From the NCBI RefSeq assembly GCF_029543085.1, contig NZ_CP119967.1:3498501-3562500 (forward strand): DNA of 64,000 nucleotides, given 5' to 3'. The stretch is from Pseudomonas sp. A34-9. Its GTDB lineage: Bacteria > Pseudomonadota > Gammaproteobacteria > Pseudomonadales > Pseudomonadaceae. Numbering within the stretch: the stretch's first letter is position 1; every line of letters begins with the position of its first letter. This document shows, piece by piece, positions 25,672-50,074 of the stretch. The notes beneath the pieces are model-generated. The model had not been told where the DNA came from, did not search any database, and was given only the letters and a program-made list of their open reading frames with translations. The position numbers and the translations under genes are program-made.

Positions 25672-25703
25672 CTGCTACAAGATTCAAAAACAGCAAAATC
25701 CCT

Positions 25704-25787
25704 GTGGGAGCTGGCTTGCCAGCGATGCGTCGGGTCAGCCAATGAAGGCGTCGCTGGTGGCGCCATCGCGGGCAAGCCCGCTCCCAC
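25704..25787. repeat. Interspersed palindromic element, GTGGGAGCTGGCTTGCC variant
   Basis: Arms GTGGGAGCTGGCTTGCC and GGGCAAGCCCGCTCCCAC, a diverged member of the GTGGGAGCGAGCC class, downstream of the second PIG-L gene. Confidence 0.75.
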
Positions 25788-25852
25788 GGAACCCGTAGCC
25801 TTAAAAAACCACGCCTGACCGCCTTAACCGTTCGTCTGGAAACCGCCCATAC

Positions 25853-25868
25853 CTGTCAACTCTGACAG
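25853..25868. promoter_or_regulatory. Palindrome CTGTCA-N4-TGACAG upstream of the Ig-like repeat gene
   Basis: Perfect 6-base inverted repeat with a 4-base spacer (ACTC), about 80 bases before the start codon at 25947. An identical palindrome with a different spacer occurs at 61363. The size suits a dimeric regulator; no regulator is identified. Confidence 0.4.
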
Positions 25869-25946
25869 TACCCGGTTTCTCCTGCCTGATGTGTGATGAG
25901 CCCACTTTCCGAACGCATTCGGGCCTCTCGTCTCCAGGAGCAAGTG

Positions 25947-28187
25947 ATGGATATCCAGTCCTCTGTACTCAACGAACTGTTCGTGCTGTACCCGGTGATC
26001 ATTCAGGGCTGGGTCACCCCGGTAAAACCGGACGGTATTGCCCACGGCGGCATTCCCAAAGTGCTCTACGACGGGCAACCACAGGGCCTTGAGTGCCTGA
26101 TCGATCCCTGGACCGAGTTGCAACTGAAATCCTGGACCATGGCCGCCGATGATCGCGTGGATTTGTACGTCAACGACGACCCCTCACCGGCAACCGGCAC
26201 GACCGTGAAACCCGGGGAGGAAAATCTGCGCGTGCGTCTGTACCTGCCCCACGGGCATTTGAGGCAGGGTCCGAATCCGCTGAAATATATAGTCACCCGC
26301 GTCGGCGGCAACACTGAGACATCCCGTGAACTGGTGGTGCTGTATCACCTGCGCGCACCGGACAGTCTGGATCTGGTCATCCCGCCAGACGTTATCAAGG
26401 ACGGTGTCAGCGCCGCACGGGCCGCACAAGGAGTGATATTCACGTTCCTCTATAACAATCGACGCCAATACGACCGCATCCAATGCCTGGTGGGCGATAC
26501 CCAATTCTGGTTCGACGTCCCCGACGGCACAGCACCCATCACTTACACCCTGTACACCGACACCTTCCGCGCGGCGGGCGACAACCCCAGCGCGGTGGTC
26601 GAATTCTTTGTCGTCGACCAGTTGGGCAACCGTAGCCAATCACCGGAGAAACGGCTGGATATTCATCTGGATCGAGTGGATCTGACCACGCCAGTTCTCG
26701 ACAACGTATTGGACGCCGCCAATAAGGAAGTGCTGGAGGGCACAAGCACTTTTAGCACCACGCTGAAACTCAAAGGCAAGGCGAGCAATGGTCAGCAAGT
26801 CGAGATTTTTGACGGGAGCGGTGCCAGCGCGGTGCCCAAAGGCACAGTAACCGCCCATCCAACGACGGGCGAATGGGAACGCACGATCACCGTACCGGTG
26901 GGTGTTCGCCGGTTGTATGCCAAGGCGCTGTATGCGGTGAGTCCGGTGTATTCGAATGTGCGTAACCTGACCGTTACGGCCGCCACCACTCCGACACTGG
27001 TCAATGTGCTGGATGCGAGCAACGAGGAAGTGCTGGAAGGTACGTTCACCATCAGCACCACACTGAAACTCAGAGGCAAGGCCAGCAACGGACAGCAAGT
27101 CGAGATTTTTGACGGGAGCGGCGCCAGCGCCGTCCCCAAAGGCACAGTAACCGCCCATCCAACGACAGGCGATTGGGAGCACGAGATTACCGTGCCGGTG
27201 GGTGCTCGCCGGTTGTATGCCAAGGCACTGTATGCCGTGAGTCCGGTGTATTCGAATGTGCGTAACCTGACCGTTACGGCCGCCACCACTCCGACACTGG
27301 TCAATGTGCTGGATGCGAGCAACAAGGAAGTGCTGGAAGGTACGTTCACCATCAGCACCACACTGAAACTCAGAGGCAAGGCCAGCAACGGACAGCAAGT
27401 CGAGATTTTTGACGGGAGCGGCGCCAGCGCTGTGCCCAAAGGCAAAGCAACCGCTCATCCAGCGACAGGCGATTGGGAGCACGCGATCACCGTACCGGTG
27501 GGTGCTCGCCGGTTGTATGCCAAGGCGCTGTATGCGGTGAATCCGGTGGATTCGAATGTGCGCAATCTGACCGTAACATCGCCATCGGACTTTGTAATAA
27601 CACCGTCCACTTTAACTATTAACGGGTTTAACTTGTTCATCGAAGACTCTGGGTTGAACTGGACTAAAACGGGTGCCGACGCCCCGAATACTTTCCAGCA
27701 AGTGACAGTAACGGGCGGTGTTCCACCCTACTTTTACAGTATCCCTCCAAACCAATTCGCATCCGTAGACTCCACCGGATTAGTCAGATCGATAGGGAAC
27801 GGCACGTCGACACTCACCGTCAGGGACAGCGCTGGGAATGCCAAAACTGTCAGCGTGAATACGTCAAGCGTTTACAAAATCCTGGTCAATAACACACCGC
27901 AGAGCCGTGCCCAGGCAGAGGCTTGGATGAGGTCTGTAGGAGGTACACCGATATATGACCAACCCGACGACGAACAGTACAAACACGAAAATTATGTCTC
28001 CTTTCAAATCGTCTCAAAATTCAATCGACCACCCGGTGAACGGCAGGACTATCACAACGTAAGATTGCGGAAAAACAACGCAGAAACATACATTACAATA
28101 AACGCGAGACCTAATTACAGATGGTGTTGGACATCTAACTCCCCCCCAACACTTGTTGCTCCAGCCATGTGCAAAAAACCAATTTAG
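25947..28187 (+). CDS. Large Ig-like tandem-repeat protein
   Basis: 746 residues; function unknown, probably an adhesin or surface protein. The start at 25947 has AGGAG six bases upstream; an in-frame ATG at 25893 lacks one. The N-terminal 250 residues hold beta-rich Ig-like segments (LKSWTMAADDRVDLYVNDD; TFLYNNRRQYDRIQCLVG). Three tandem repeats of exactly 100 residues follow (TLVNVLDASN, EVLEGTFTIS, GQQVEIFDGSGASAVPKG, RRLYAKALYAV). Then comes a Big-type domain (VTVTGGVPPYFYSI, LTVRDSAGNAKTVSVNTS) and a unique C-terminal tip with lower GC and a final Cys. There is no classical signal peptide, so the secretion route is unclear. Confidence 0.82.
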   Translation: MDIQSSVLNELFVLYPVIIQGWVTPVKPDGIAHGGIPKVLYDGQPQGLECLIDPWTELQLKSWTMAADDRVDLYVNDDPSPATGTTVKPGEENLRVRLYLPHGHLRQGPNPLKYIVTRVGGNTETSRELVVLYHLRAPDSLDLVIPPDVIKDGVSAARAAQGVIFTFLYNNRRQYDRIQCLVGDTQFWFDVPDGTAPITYTLYTDTFRAAGDNPSAVVEFFVVDQLGNRSQSPEKRLDIHLDRVDLTTPVLDNVLDAANKEVLEGTSTFSTTLKLKGKASNGQQVEIFDGSGASAVPKGTVTAHPTTGEWERTITVPVGVRRLYAKALYAVSPVYSNVRNLTVTAATTPTLVNVLDASNEEVLEGTFTISTTLKLRGKASNGQQVEIFDGSGASAVPKGTVTAHPTTGDWEHEITVPVGARRLYAKALYAVSPVYSNVRNLTVTAATTPTLVNVLDASNKEVLEGTFTISTTLKLRGKASNGQQVEIFDGSGASAVPKGKATAHPATGDWEHAITVPVGARRLYAKALYAVNPVDSNVRNLTVTSPSDFVITPSTLTINGFNLFIEDSGLNWTKTGADAPNTFQQVTVTGGVPPYFYSIPPNQFASVDSTGLVRSIGNGTSTLTVRDSAGNAKTVSVNTSSVYKILVNNTPQSRAQAEAWMRSVGGTPIYDQPDDEQYKHENYVSFQIVSKFNRPPGERQDYHNVRLRKNNAETYITINARPNYRWCWTSNSPPTLVAPAMCKKPI
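26695..27594 (+). repeat. Three tandem 300-bp coding repeats
   Basis: Units at about 26695-26994, 26995-27294 and 27295-27594 with an exact 300-base period. Units 2 and 3 are almost identical in DNA, including silent positions. This indicates recent duplication or gene conversion, and unit number may vary between strains. Confidence 0.9.
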
Positions 28188-28206
28188 CCATGCCGTGAGC
28201 AATTGA

Positions 28207-28244
28207 GGAGAGACCACTTTTTCATAATGTGGTCTCTCCCCTTT
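28207..28244 (+). terminator. Rho-independent terminator after the Ig-like repeat gene
   Basis: An 11-base perfect stem, GGAGAGACCAC with GTGGTCTCTCC, an 11-base loop and a following CCCTTTT run, 20 bases after the stop codon. Confidence 0.85.
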
Positions 28245-28275
28245 TAGCGTTCGCCGCGCAATACAGGAGCTGCCG

Positions 28276-28370
28276 AACATTTATCAGGGACAAACATTTA
28301 TCAGGGACAGACCACGTTTCTATCCAGACAGATCACCCGGGTAAAAAGGGGACGGACTTATTTAACCATT
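28276..28370. other. Short tandem duplication and mobile-element-like remnant
   Basis: A 17-base unit (AACATTTATCAGGGACA) is repeated head to tail at 28276-28292 and 28293-28309. It is followed by GACAGACCACGTTTC and AAAAAGGGGACGGACTTATTT, motifs commonly seen flanking Y1-type transposase genes in proteobacteria. No transposase reading frame remains here. Confidence 0.4.
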
Positions 28371-28422
28371 GATTTAAACAGCGGGGCTTGATCGAGATTT
28401 TTCTGCTGACCGGGATGGCCCT

Positions 28423-28488
28423 TTCGCGAGCAAGCTCGCTCCCACAGGGAAACGCATTCCAAATGTGGGAGCGAGCCTGCTCGCGAAG
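28423..28488. repeat. Interspersed palindromic element, GTGGGAGCGAGCCTGCTCG class
   Basis: Arms TTCGCGAGCAAGCTCGCTCC and GGGAGCGAGCCTGCTCGCGAA, in the long gap before the DUF6124-type gene. Confidence 0.85.
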
Positions 28489-28666
28489 GGGCCAGTGAAG
28501 TCAGCGCAAATTGCGTTTTAAACTCAGGCGTTTAAAGGACACCTCCAGACACGCCTTTCAGGCTACAAATTCTTGCGTCATTGCCTACAGCCAAGCCAGA
28601 ATCCGCCGGCTTGTGCGCCTTGGGGTCGGGTTCTATTGTGGGTCGGTCGCTGATTGTTCAGTGATC

Positions 28667-28822
28667 GGGTTTAGCAGCCCGGATGTTTCTCTAGACGCAC
28701 AAAGTCCGTTGCCGTTATGGCGGCTTTGCGTGGGGCACTTCGGTGCGCCGGGTTCTAGAGTCCTGGTCTGCTAACCCGCGTACAGCCGCCACCTCCTTCG
28801 TTAGCAGCGAACGGTGGCAGCT
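28667..28822 (+). ncRNA. Candidate structured 5' leader with mutually exclusive pairings
   Basis: About 155 bases directly upstream of the DUF6124-type gene fold into nested helices. An outer stem pairs 28667-28677 (GGGTTTAGCAG) with 28768-28777 (CTGCTAACCC). A second stem pairs CTCTAGA (28689-28695) with TCTAGAG (28754-28760). They enclose a hairpin ACGCACAAAG/CTTTGCGT (28695-28731) and a UUCG-capped hairpin GCAC-TTCG-GTGC (28735-28746). A fourth hairpin, AGCCGCCACC/GGTGGCAGCT (28784-28822), ends 23 bases before the start codon. Segment 28768-28775 (CTGCTAAC) is also a perfect complement of 28800-28807 (GTTAGCAG) in that last hairpin, so two folds compete, as in a riboswitch or attenuator. 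No known class is recognised. Confidence 0.6.
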
Positions 28823-28845
28823 TCACTACTCTAGAGGCTTTACCG

Positions 28846-29205
28846 ATGATCAAACCAACGCCAAACCCACCCGAAACCGACCCCACCTCCCCCTACGAAT
28901 CCCTCGATTCAAAAAAACTCCACGAAGCCGCCGACCGCGCTCTCGACCACTACCTCTGCCCACCCGGCTCGACGCCACCGCCCCGTAAAACCCGCAGGAT
29001 GTACGCCGTAACTGCAGACTTCAAAAACGAGGAGCTGCTGGCCGAGGCCTTCGAGACCCTCGCGTCGGCAAGAACCATCGCCCATGACTTCGCCCATCTC
29101 ATACCCGCGTCGCAGCGCCGGACGCTGATGGGCATTGCGCAACTGATCATGCTCGGGGAGCTGGCGGTGAACCGGGTGATGGATAATTTGCAGTTGCCGG
29201 ACTGA
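28846..29205 (+). CDS. Small protein of DUF6124 type
   Basis: 119 residues, function unknown. A disordered, proline-rich N-terminus (MIKPTPNPPETDPTSPYESL) leads into a helical domain (KLHEAADRALDHYL; ELLAEAFETLASARTIAHDFAHLI; LMGIAQLIMLGELAVNRVMD) as in the Pseudomonas DUF6124/DUF3077-like small proteins. AGAGG eight bases before the ATG is the ribosome binding site. It has no signal peptide. The structured leader upstream implies post-transcriptional control. Family name is from pattern recognition, so moderately sure. Confidence 0.75.
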   Translation: MIKPTPNPPETDPTSPYESLDSKKLHEAADRALDHYLCPPGSTPPPRKTRRMYAVTADFKNEELLAEAFETLASARTIAHDFAHLIPASQRRTLMGIAQLIMLGELAVNRVMDNLQLPD

Positions 29206-29545
29206 CACCAGCCCACCCTGTGGCGGGGCAGCTTGTCGAATCGTCGCACCGTCTCGCTCGGCTGCGCAGCAGTCGTAAATCCTGAGTACGCAGTATTCTG
29301 AAGGATTGAATTCTCAGGTTTTGGGGCGGCTATGCAGTCCATCGGGGCTGAGTCCCTTTACCACCATCACGACTGTAGGAGCTGCGGCACGCTGCGATCT
29401 TTGGATCTTGATTTTTAACAGCAAGATCAAAAGATCGCAGCGTGTCGCAGCTCCTACACAGGGGCGGTGTAGTGTTTTTCAGACGGAACTGCCGCCCTCA
29501 CCCATCAGTCGCATGAACAGGCACTCAGGATTCAGAGGAGTAACC
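29206..29545. other. Intergenic region with a palindromic element
   Basis: 340 bases with no gene seen. It contains an inverted repeat around CTGAG...CTCAG (29283-29317) that could form a weak hairpin after the DUF6124-type gene, and a GTAGGAGCTGC-class element at 29375-29457. Confidence 0.5.
29375..29457. repeat. Interspersed palindromic element, GTAGGAGCTGC class
   Basis: Arms GTAGGAGCTGCGGCACGCTG and GCGTGTCGCAGCTCCTAC around a centre with GATCTTGATTTTTAACA; related to the copy at 1851. Confidence 0.85.
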
Positions 29546-47992: not shown

Positions 47993-50074
47993 TCAGACCA
48001 CCGCCACCTGCTTGGCGCGCGCAATATCCTGCATGAATTTGTCCGCCGGCATCGGATGCCCCAGCAGATAACCCTGCAGCGAATCACAACCCAACTGCGT
48101 CAAGAACTCCTGCTGCACCCCGGTTTCCACACCTTCAGCGACAATGCGCAAACCGAGTGCCTGCCCCAATGCGACAATCGCCGAAACAATCGCTGCATCG
48201 TCGCTGTCATGCTCCAGATCCCGCACAAAACCACGGTCGATCTTCAGCTCGTTGGCTGGCAAACGCTTGAGGTACATCAGGCTGGAATAACCCGTGCCGA
48301 AGTCATCGATCGACAGATCGACGCCCATGTCCGACAACTCCTGCAACACTGTCATGCTCGCATCGGCATCGCTCATGGCCGTGGTCTCGGTGATTTCCAG
48401 GGTCAGGCTGTTGGCCGGCAAGTGATGCGTGGCCAACGCCTTGGCCACGCTGCGCACCAGTCCCGCGTGGCAGAACTGCAGCGCCGACAGGTTCACCGCG
48501 ATACGCCAATCGGTGTAACCGAGCACGTACCACTCGCGCATTTGCCGGCAGGCTTCATTGAGCACCCATTCACCGATCGGAATGATCAGCCCGGATTTCT
48601 CCGCCAGTTCGATGAACTTGTCCGGCATCAGCATGCCGTGAATCGGATGCTGCCAGCGCAGCAAGGCTTCAGCGCCGACCGCACGGCCATTGGCCGCGTC
48701 GAACTTCGGTTGGTAATGCAAACTGAACTGGCTGTGCTCCAGCGCCGCGCGCAGGTCCTGCAACAGCTGCAACTGCTTGCGCGCGTTGTTGTTCATCGAC
48801 GCGTCGAAAAAGCTGTAACCGTTTTTACCGCCGCCCTTGGCGTGGTACATCGCCGCGTCGGCGTTCATCAGCAGTTCCTGCGCGTTCTGGCCATTACCCG
48901 GATACAGGGCGATGCCGACGCTGGCGGAGATCTGCAAATCATGGTCGGCGACGCGGAATGCTTGCGCGATCAGGCCGACCTGACGTGCAGCCAGTCCCAG
49001 TGCGTCATTGGGTTCGGTCAGACGCACCAGCAGCACGAATTCATCGCCGCCGATTCGCGCCAGTGTGTCCGGACCGCGCAAGTCTTCACGCAGACGCAAC
49101 CCCACTTCACGCAACAACTGGTCGCCCATATGGTGACCGAACGCATCGTTGACCGGTTTGAAGCCGTCCAGATCGATGAACATCAAGGCAAAACAGCCGC
49201 CCTGTTCATGGACCTTTTTCATCGCCTGATTGATCCGGTCGTCCAGCAGCATGCGATTCGGCAGGCCGGTCAGGGTGTCGTGCAGGGCCAGTTGCGTGAG
49301 TTCACGGTTGGCCACGGTCAATGAGTGCGCCAGATCAGCGGTGCGCGCTTCGAGGCGTGCGTCGAGAATCGAGGTGAGCAAGGCGATCGACAGCACTGCC
49401 AACGTCGTGATCAACACCAGACTGTCGAGGCCGTTGCCCTTCAGACCATTGAGCGTGGCGCCGCAGAAGCTGCCATTAGGGAATTGCGCGGCGGCCATGC
49501 CGGTGTAATGCATGCCGACAATGGCCAGCCCCATGATCACCGCAGCGCCGGCGCGAATCAGCCGCACATATGGCGAGTGCTGACGCAGGCGGAAAGCGAT
49601 CCACAGTGCCGCCGCCGAGGCACCGACGGCGATCAGCAAGGAGGCGCCGAACAGTGTCGGGTCGTAGTCGATCCCGGGGGTCATGCGCATCGCCGCCATG
49701 CCGGTGTAGTGCATGGCGCTGATCCCGGTGCCCATGATCAGCGCGCCGAACGCCAGTTGCAGGATCGGCAGTTTCGGCTGACTGACCAGCCACAAGGCGA
49801 ACCCGCTGGAGAGCATCGCGATCAGTAGCGACAGCGCCGTGAGCGTGACGTCGTAACCGAGGTCGATCGGCAATTTGAACGCGAGCATGCCGATGAAGTG
49901 CATCGACCAGACGCCGACGCCCATGGCGAACGCGCCACCCGCCGTCCAGAAATGCACCGCACGCCCCTTGGCCGTGGCGATACGCCCGGTGAGGTCGAGC
50001 GCGGTGTACGAGGCGAGTATCGCCACGCACAACGAAATGAAAACCAGGGTGGAGGAATAACTACCGATGAGCAT
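47993..50074 (-). CDS. MHYT-GGDEF-EAL membrane protein, MucR-like
   Basis: 693-residue cyclic-di-GMP enzyme. The N-terminal integral-membrane MHYT sensor (about 1-240) carries the repeated MHFIGML and MHYTGMAA motifs, thought to bind a metal for gas sensing. The GGDEF domain (about 265-425) keeps RIGGDEFVLLV, and the EAL domain (about 440-693) keeps AEALLRWQHP, EITETTAMSD, IDDFGTGYSS and the VAEGVET motif, so both catalytic activities look possible. It resembles P. aeruginosa MucR (same domain order with intact GGDEF) more than NbdA. The start at 50074 places the first membrane helix properly; the frame runs on to 50188. Confidence 0.92.
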   Translation of the reverse strand: MLIGSYSSTLVFISLCVAILASYTALDLTGRIATAKGRAVHFWTAGGAFAMGVGVWSMHFIGMLAFKLPIDLGYDVTLTALSLLIAMLSSGFALWLVSQPKLPILQLAFGALIMGTGISAMHYTGMAAMRMTPGIDYDPTLFGASLLIAVGASAAALWIAFRLRQHSPYVRLIRAGAAVIMGLAIVGMHYTGMAAAQFPNGSFCGATLNGLKGNGLDSLVLITTLAVLSIALLTSILDARLEARTADLAHSLTVANRELTQLALHDTLTGLPNRMLLDDRINQAMKKVHEQGGCFALMFIDLDGFKPVNDAFGHHMGDQLLREVGLRLREDLRGPDTLARIGGDEFVLLVRLTEPNDALGLAARQVGLIAQAFRVADHDLQISASVGIALYPGNGQNAQELLMNADAAMYHAKGGGKNGYSFFDASMNNNARKQLQLLQDLRAALEHSQFSLHYQPKFDAANGRAVGAEALLRWQHPIHGMLMPDKFIELAEKSGLIIPIGEWVLNEACRQMREWYVLGYTDWRIAVNLSALQFCHAGLVRSVAKALATHHLPANSLTLEITETTAMSDADASMTVLQELSDMGVDLSIDDFGTGYSSLMYLKRLPANELKIDRGFVRDLEHDSDDAAIVSAIVALGQALGLRIVAEGVETGVQQEFLTQLGCDSLQGYLLGHPMPADKFMQDIARAKQVAVV

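Follow-up and report, generated by a model that had tools for sequence, protein, structure and literature searches.

The window analysed here, a stretch of 64,000 nt from the chromosome of Pseudomonas sp. A34-9, contains a highly structured leader immediately upstream of a gene for a DUF6124 protein, and the question raised by this locus is what kind of regulator the leader represents. The initial annotation, made from the sequence alone, described it as a switch-like element in which nested long-range stems are mutually exclusive with another hairpin, in the manner of attenuators and riboswitches, and did not recognise a known class. The pairings themselves were present: GGG-TTAGCAG at window positions 28667-28677 pairs, with one bulged T, with CTGCTAACCC at 28768-28777; CTCTAGA (28689-28695) pairs with TCTAGAG (28754-28760); and CTGCTAAC (28768-28775) is perfectly complementary to GTTAGCAG at 28800-28807. 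The downstream gene had also been labelled correctly (PF19619, 65.7 bits, cut-off 27). The 221-nt stretch from 28640 to 28860 has a predicted folding energy of -91.4 kcal/mol (z = -3.58), which none of 200 dinucleotide shuffles could equal.

The leader does, however, belong to a known class. Positions 28713-28796 on the plus strand matched the whole model (1-87) of the C4 antisense RNA (Rfam RF01695; 68.3 bits, gathering threshold 45), and positions 28633-28685 on the same strand matched the c4-a1b1 element (RF03163; 50.5 bits, gathering threshold 46.7). These were the sole Rfam matches over gathering within the 64-kb window. No riboswitch family matched between 28500 and 28960, even at E values up to 10, and the idea of a new riboswitch or attenuator class was rejected once C4 had been identified. 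What stands of the original description is a structured leader with mutually exclusive, covarying pairings; the cis-acting attenuator or riboswitch gave way to the two Rfam families.

The elements of the module follow each other on the plus strand. The a1 target, TTAGCAGC (28671-28678), has 8 nt identical to the a2 target, GTTAGCAGC (28800-28808), and both pair with the a' segment of C4 (28768-28775). The b1 target is CTCTAGA at 28689-28695, a sequence that is common to b2; it pairs with the b' loop of C4, TTCTAGAGT (28753-28761), which has the character of an anti-Shine-Dalgarno sequence. The three complementary segments noted initially are a1, a' and a2, with the nested stems corresponding to a1:a' and b1:b' and the alternative fold to a':a2. 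The strand that had been overlooked is b2, ACTCTAGAG at 28828-28836, with which b' forms a 9-nt pairing in the sequence and in the pairing test described below. This second triple, b1, b' and b2, brings a loop of C4 to the Shine-Dalgarno region in front of the DUF6124 gene, the predicted regulated ORF (28846-29205, plus strand, 119 aa), which starts with ATG at 28846. Both a2 and b2 are located between C4 and this start codon.

A probable promoter precedes these elements on the plus strand, with a -35 hexamer TTGTGC (28611-28616), a 17-nt spacer and a -10 hexamer TATTGT (28634-28639) that is overlapped by the c4-a1b1 match. A scan with a promoter consensus called no promoter, and the assignment rests on conservation in the alignment of 41 modules introduced below: the pattern TT[GC]NNN-N16-18-TANNNT occurs 60-130 nt before C4 in 22 of the 41, compared to 2.0 expected from mononucleotide shuffling. 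A transcript start downstream of 28780, which would have undermined the original proposal, is thus not favoured.

In phages P1 and P7, RNase P excises C4 as a small antisense RNA, as summarised in PMC5320573 (citing Hartmann 1995); according to the accounts of P1 in PMC5320573 and PMC12197685, RNase P makes the 5' end and the ribosome binding site is masked by the b' loop. The deposited P1 annotation lists a1 at 48255, b1 at 48269, C4 at 48343-48419, a2 at 48423, b2 at 48452 and icd at 48470. Since the ends of this 77-nt P1 RNA (GG...CCACC) are matched here, with identical boundaries TTAT^GG and CCACC^, the mature RNA of our module is predicted to extend from 28719 to 28793 on the plus strand, a length of 75 nt. 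By the same analogy, a single promoter would give rise to a transcript containing a1-b1, C4, a2-b2 and DUF6124, from which C4 would be cut out as an RNA of ≈75 nt, with its 5' end most likely made by RNase P. In the freed C4, a' would bind a2 and b' would bind b2, and translation of DUF6124 would be blocked because b2 covers the Shine-Dalgarno region. The upstream a1-b1 would compete for a' and b', acting either as a decoy or, while the transcript is still unprocessed, as a lid in cis. C4 should thereby silence its own DUF6124 gene.

The module under study is one of many. In the source genome (6.54 Mb, one contig), a covariance-model search found at least 41 C4 sequences over the cut-off, at least 37 matches to c4-a1b1, of which at least 21 were over the cut-off, and 38 matches to DUF6124 were also found. 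Because 150 candidates were scored in each RNA search (out of 1,737 first-look candidates for C4 and 3,758 for c4-a1b1), weak copies may be absent from these counts. The C4 modules were numbered M01-M41 by position, with the studied copy being M24. They are scattered along the chromosome with a median gap of 124 kb, and three pairs are less than 5 kb apart. A DUF6124 gene lies directly behind C4 in 33 of the 41 modules, including two in which the gene is damaged (a broken frame in M05, ATT in place of ATG in M39). Among the rest, C4 is followed by DUF3077 in M02 and M10, by a 76-aa ORF and then a DUF3077-like ORF 40% identical to that of M10 in M35, by an antirepressor-like gene of Bro-N type (PHROG 2899, anti-repressor Ant) in M40, and by ORFs without a significant Pfam family in M01, M03, M17 and M21. 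Conversely, five of the 38 DUF6124 genes have no C4 directly upstream.

Several of these loci have features of their own. M35 (L183, G000:C1:5294000-5305000) has a phage-type integrase on one side and a primase-like DUF927 gene on the other, with a queuosine synthesis gene adjacent, and resembles a small integrative element under C4-type regulation. M40 (L184, G000:C1:6298000-6309000) adjoins P-II and ammonium transporter genes, and visual inspection of the ORFs listed around it revealed no prophage cluster. In M02 (L028), the usual position of the gene start, behind b2, is taken by a 26-codon ORF whose end is close to where the DUF3077 gene begins, an arrangement suggestive of translational coupling. 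One of the DUF6124 genes that has no C4 adjoins a PrrF RNA (L063:1256-1403; 159.1 bits). Another (G000:C1:6360553) has the appearance of an orphan target, with a c4-a1b1 element shortly 5' of its start codon (L062:425-477, G000:C1:6360324-6360376). No convincing partner C4 was found for it: its best summed energy, for a longer target stretch, was -23.5, compared to a cognate mean of -23.9, and non-cognate combinations reach -31.9.

The leaders of the 41 C4 modules were aligned, providing the check for covariation that the initial annotation had called for, and the signal was strong. In the C4 fold itself, 96.2% of the cells were paired, compared to 86.5 in shuffled alignments, and two-sided changes were seen in 18 of 26 pairs (7.8 when shuffled). 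The a1:a' helix had a standard pair in 99.3% of cells, with a shuffled mean of 73.1, and 83 two-sided changes compared to 19.4, while for a':a2 the corresponding values were 86.3% and 64.9, and 78 and 19.5. Seven of the eight listed a':a2 pairs are well kept; the eighth, which lies outside the helix, pairs in 2 of 41 modules. For these two short helices the signal sits in the paired cells and in the covariation score, neither of which was equalled by any shuffle; neither the pairs that show a two-sided change nor the types of pair were clearly more numerous than in the shuffles (shuffles as high on these two measures: 84 and 107 of 500, and 319 and 437 of 500). Moreover, a1 and a2 have 7-11 identical nt in common in all 41 modules, despite 29 different a' segments; when modules were paired at random, 7 nt or more were common to a1 and a2 in 99 of 500 cases. 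A fourth helix used in the predicted fold, between the 3' arm of C4 and the a2-b2 spacer, was weakly supported (72.6% paired compared to 70.4 when shuffled; 222 of 10,000 permutations as good) and is not claimed.

The loops of C4 and their targets change together from copy to copy, so that each module has what amounts to a pairing code. The 41 modules of the source genome have 40 distinct b' loops, 29 distinct a' segments and 40 distinct combinations of the two, the sole shared code being that of M14 and M24. The longest b':b2 helix averaged 9.39 for a module's own target and 5.98 for the targets of others, the longest a':a2 helix 7.22 and 5.23, and the summed a'+b' duplex energy -23.7 and -14.6 kcal/mol; none of 10,000 permutations was as good for any of the three. 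(The loop of M20 was set by hand in the duplex-energy test; the starts of M35 and M39, where no ORF was called automatically, were likewise hand-set; for M02, the start of the 26-codon upstream ORF was used as the target.) By summed energy, no other target beat the own one in 27 of 41 rows, in 25 of which the own target was uniquely best, and a better-scoring non-cognate target existed for 14 modules. By helix length, the own b':b2 was strictly longest in 20 of 41 and tied or best in 29, with weak b2 pairing, in runs of 6 nt, in M05, M06, M12, M16 and M30. The least specific target is b1, with b':b1 helices of 7.98 for own and 6.67 for non-cognate combinations; the own b1 was tied or best in 9 of 41 modules when G-U pairs were allowed and in 21 of 41 when they were not.

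The same privacy was found in a second genome, G010, where the longest b':b2 helix was 9.55 for own and 5.78 for other targets (22 modules; 0 of 10,000 permutations as good). Here, 26 of 29 DUF6124 places were fetched and 25 modules found, of which three were left out of the pairing test: L314, whose loop was not parsed, and L315 and L322, for which no start codon was found. The 24 modules that could be coded have 23 codes. The repeated one belongs to the neighbours L322 (G010:C1:741755-741782) and L302, ≈0.7 kb apart, and the L322 gene has lost its start. As far as complementarity tells, most C4 RNAs fit their own target and mismatch most others, and the modules would therefore constitute largely separate antisense circuits, with imperfect privacy. 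Such circuits would be mutually blind or, in phage terms, would form separate immunity groups.

These observations also bear on the attenuator or riboswitch originally proposed, in which two exclusive forms of the leader would sense a ligand or the position of a ribosome without any separate small RNA. Exclusive folds do exist in the leader, the a1 hairpin and a T-rich sequence at 28665-28682 resemble a terminator (although the two such sites found do not exceed the 2.3 expected by chance), and there is a weak similarity to isrK (RF01394; 24.7 bits, below the cut-off of 50). A leader of this kind does not, however, explain a full-length C4 match over gathering or the covariation of the C4 fold itself, and loops that are recoded from copy to copy are the opposite of a conserved ligand pocket, in line with the failure of any riboswitch family to match. 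We consider this explanation very unlikely. With high confidence, the locus is instead a C4-type antisense module that would silence its own DUF6124 gene, one of about forty largely separate circuits in this chromosome.

Among known systems, the closest likeness is to the immI region (c4-icd-ant) of P1 and P7, which has the same RNA family, the same order a1-b1-C4-a2-b2-ORF, the same (here predicted) mature ends, and b2 just 5' of the start codon. P1 and P7 are described as heteroimmune through C4 (PMC12197685), which is the same idea as the private codes found here. Whereas each of these phages has one C4, a single chromosome here contains about forty copies with 40 coexisting codes, and icd and ant are replaced downstream by DUF6124. 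The operon is not of the P1 immI type, in that the DUF6124 gene has no similarity to Icd or to PHROGs, and in the source genome an antirepressor-like gene was found behind C4 for M40 only. The Group 1 sRNAs of Acinetobacter baumannii are also a large C4-like family in one genome, with 21 members in AB5075, apparent processing at a GG motif and variable a' loops (PMC5320573). As portrayed in the sections of that paper on Group 1, they are free sRNAs with unknown targets and no adjacent regulated gene is named, whereas here each C4 precedes its own covarying target and an ORF at the expected place. The IsrK-orf45-anrP leader of the Salmonella prophage Gifsy-1 is comparable, being a leader with alternative structures that precedes a small ORF and an antirepressor and exists in short and long forms, but in the account of PMC4825925 it activates translation in trans and is followed by orf45 and anrP; here, repression is predicted and DUF6124 follows. 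Weinberg 2010 reports C4 from Proteobacteria and phages, and a Burkholderia table and a Xylella table enter C4 beside isrK. In the literature library searched, no description of such modules in Pseudomonas was found.

M24 lies within a 3.7-kb segment (25679-29372) that is absent from four relatives, G011, G002, G005 and G010, in which the aligned flanks are 16, 52, 129 and 171 bp apart, respectively, and no C4 was found at the corresponding place. In a fifth relative, G007, the right side of the segment alone could be aligned. The segment also contains a repeat-containing ORF of 764 aa (25893-28187), and a stretch related to it (72-73% identical; L180:5322-5563) occurs between M13 and M14, so that M14 and M24 both adjoin such a repeat gene. 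Short palindromic repeats, REP-like by their look, flank the module at 28423-28511 and 29373-29458 and recur beside M13/M14 and beside a copy in G011. This G011 module is 88% alike M24 but sits at the place of M22/M23 of the present genome, and the 25-nt loop stretch of its C4 is identical at every position to that of M24 and M14; thus, one code is found at three different places. The homology of M24 to the M14 and G011 copies begins upstream of the promoter, continues as far as the gene's end and spans ≈670-685 bp.

Comparison of neighbouring modules showed that the gene and its C4 diverge unequally. The genes of M22 and M23 differ by 2.2% and their C4 sequences by 23%; for M13 and M14 the values are 3.1% and 31%, and for M19 and M20 they are 7.3% and 39%. 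M14 and M24 display the reverse, with genes that differ by 9.5% and C4 sequences that do not differ at all (0%). Judging from these sequences, the combination of gene and leader seems to have been reshuffled among modules. We could not establish a clearly faster evolution of the code sites: of 15 pairs chosen for comparison, divergence at these sites exceeded that of the remaining leader in 11 and fell below it in 4, and the comparison is confounded by alignment gaps.

Within the genus, C4 and DUF6124 occur together. Among 119 genomes sampled, C4 was present in 110 and DUF6124 in 95, the nine genomes without C4 were also without DUF6124, and the counts of the two per genome rose together (rho 0.886; the C4 count was entered as at least 33 for 17 of the 119). 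Of 508 relatives in named genomes, 79 loci were kept, all from Pseudomonas, and C4 was found 49-61 nt 5' of the start in 78 of them; the other, L121, is cut by a contig end. A phage locus, L145, the 80th record beside these, carries C4 as well. Outside the genus, no DUF6124 was found in 273 class-level genomes, whereas C4 was present in 17 of them, at 1-6 copies each. Of the 21 non-genus C4 sequences (on 18 stretches), 19 have a1 and a2 with at least 7 nt in common, a count made without a permutation control. Ten proteins encoded downstream of them were scanned: three are of antirepressor type (AntA, Rha, Bro-N), and the other seven, of 73-148 aa, had no Pfam match over the cut-off. These C4 sequences resemble the Pseudomonas modules in their shared a1/a2, and some precede antirepressors, but they are few per genome and not associated with DUF6124. 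In one 1.5-Mb genome of the same class (L293; G379:C9:1000-5000), four C4 sequences are arranged in tandem within ≈1.4 kb; their a' segments all differ, and each has a sequence of its own that is common to its a1 and a2.

In IMG/VR, 74 viral loci encode DUF6124 relatives, with C4 directly upstream in 59, 533-548 nt upstream in seven and absent from eight. About 3 kb of contig is present on both sides in 28 of the 74, and part of the remaining loci may be host flank. Two viral loci were viewed closely, and both have a phage tail gene nearby; on a viral contig (L250:3476-4864), a C4-DUF6124 module is followed by a RelA/SpoT-domain gene and then by a phage tail assembly chaperone gene, so that the module is in the position of a cargo gene. 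The code of M32 recurs in 11 viral contigs.

One way to account for this distribution is that the DUF6124 genes are ordinary bacterial genes that have kept a phage-type control, with codes that differ by drift and copies that are old. Consistent with this, the DUF6124 protein of the window had no match among 72,556 plasmid records and a single one among 50,697 phage records, located next to prtR at the margin of a phage locus, and the code sites are not clearly faster-diverging than their surroundings. Codes also recur across species, as expected of old lineages: 78 named loci, a narrow sample consisting of the best matches to one protein, have 20 codes, many of them common to several species. 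(All 78 were coded by a looser rule, since automatic parsing of the loops missed 21.) However, homologous flanks were shared by just 76 of 242 same-code pairs, compared to 439 of 2,761 different-code pairs, these pairwise counts being used because clustering of the flanks twice chained into one large group. The segment missing from four relatives and the relatives encoded on viral contigs also argue against simple residence. Furthermore, same-code pairs within one genome were rare (1 of 77, with 6.2 expected; 92 of 10,000 permutations as low), which drift alone leaves unexplained, while orthology can explain part of the deficit. The same-code pairs found in one genome are M14/M24, L071/L080 and the G010 neighbours L302/L322. 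Overall, we regard the domesticated reading as possible, though on balance improbable.

The protein itself gives few hints. The AlphaFold model of the 119-aa protein is a helical hairpin of moderate confidence (pLDDT 74, pTM 0.47) that had no match in the PDB at E ≤ 0.001, and the best hit in a sequence search against solved structures had E = 0.23. The DUF6124 profile matches 4,290 protein clusters, and our literature search found DUF6124 named in no paper and DUF3077 in one. A single superfamily of DUF6124, DUF3077 and the unassigned ORFs was considered and is not claimed (hhalign probabilities below 1%). In an arrangement like that of type I toxin-antitoxin systems, DUF6124 would be a growth inhibitor, the C4 RNA its antitoxin, and the copies addiction units. 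The icd gene of P1, which occupies the same position, carries the annotation of a cell division inhibitor; a spread in many copies under private codes would suit units that must avoid cross-silencing, and the presence of modules in viral contigs fits as well. On the other hand, DUF6124 has no similarity to P1 Icd (BLASTP E = 17), no toxin or defence family is named for it in Pfam, PHROGs, NCBIfam or PADLOC, and the fold search produced nothing significant. This suggestion, too, is possible but on balance improbable. The addiction-like and the domesticated readings compete about the purpose of the modules, not about the RNA, and the antisense module described above is common to both.

Selection for distinct codes would fit two of the observations, because the near-identical genes of M22 and M23 carry different codes and because the same-code neighbours in G010 include a gene that has lost its start. 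More speculatively, the chromosome might hold about forty C4 immunity groups that are blind to one another, a library in which modules would silence their own gene and that of any module that enters with a matching code, phage-borne ones included. Modules would move and duplicate, and working pairs with the same code would tend not to persist together, comparable to plasmid incompatibility groups. We consider this larger picture rather doubtful as it stands.

C4 is a classic phage immunity RNA that occurs in single copy in P1 and P7. The presence of about forty co-resident C4 modules in one chromosome, nearly all differently coded and with target genes of their own, constitutes a natural experiment, and opens the questions of how many antisense pairs can stay apart within one cell and how new codes arise. 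DUF6124 gains a regulatory handle and a first functional lead, and it becomes possible to test whether C4 RNAs encoded in the chromosome counteract modules with a matching code on phages.
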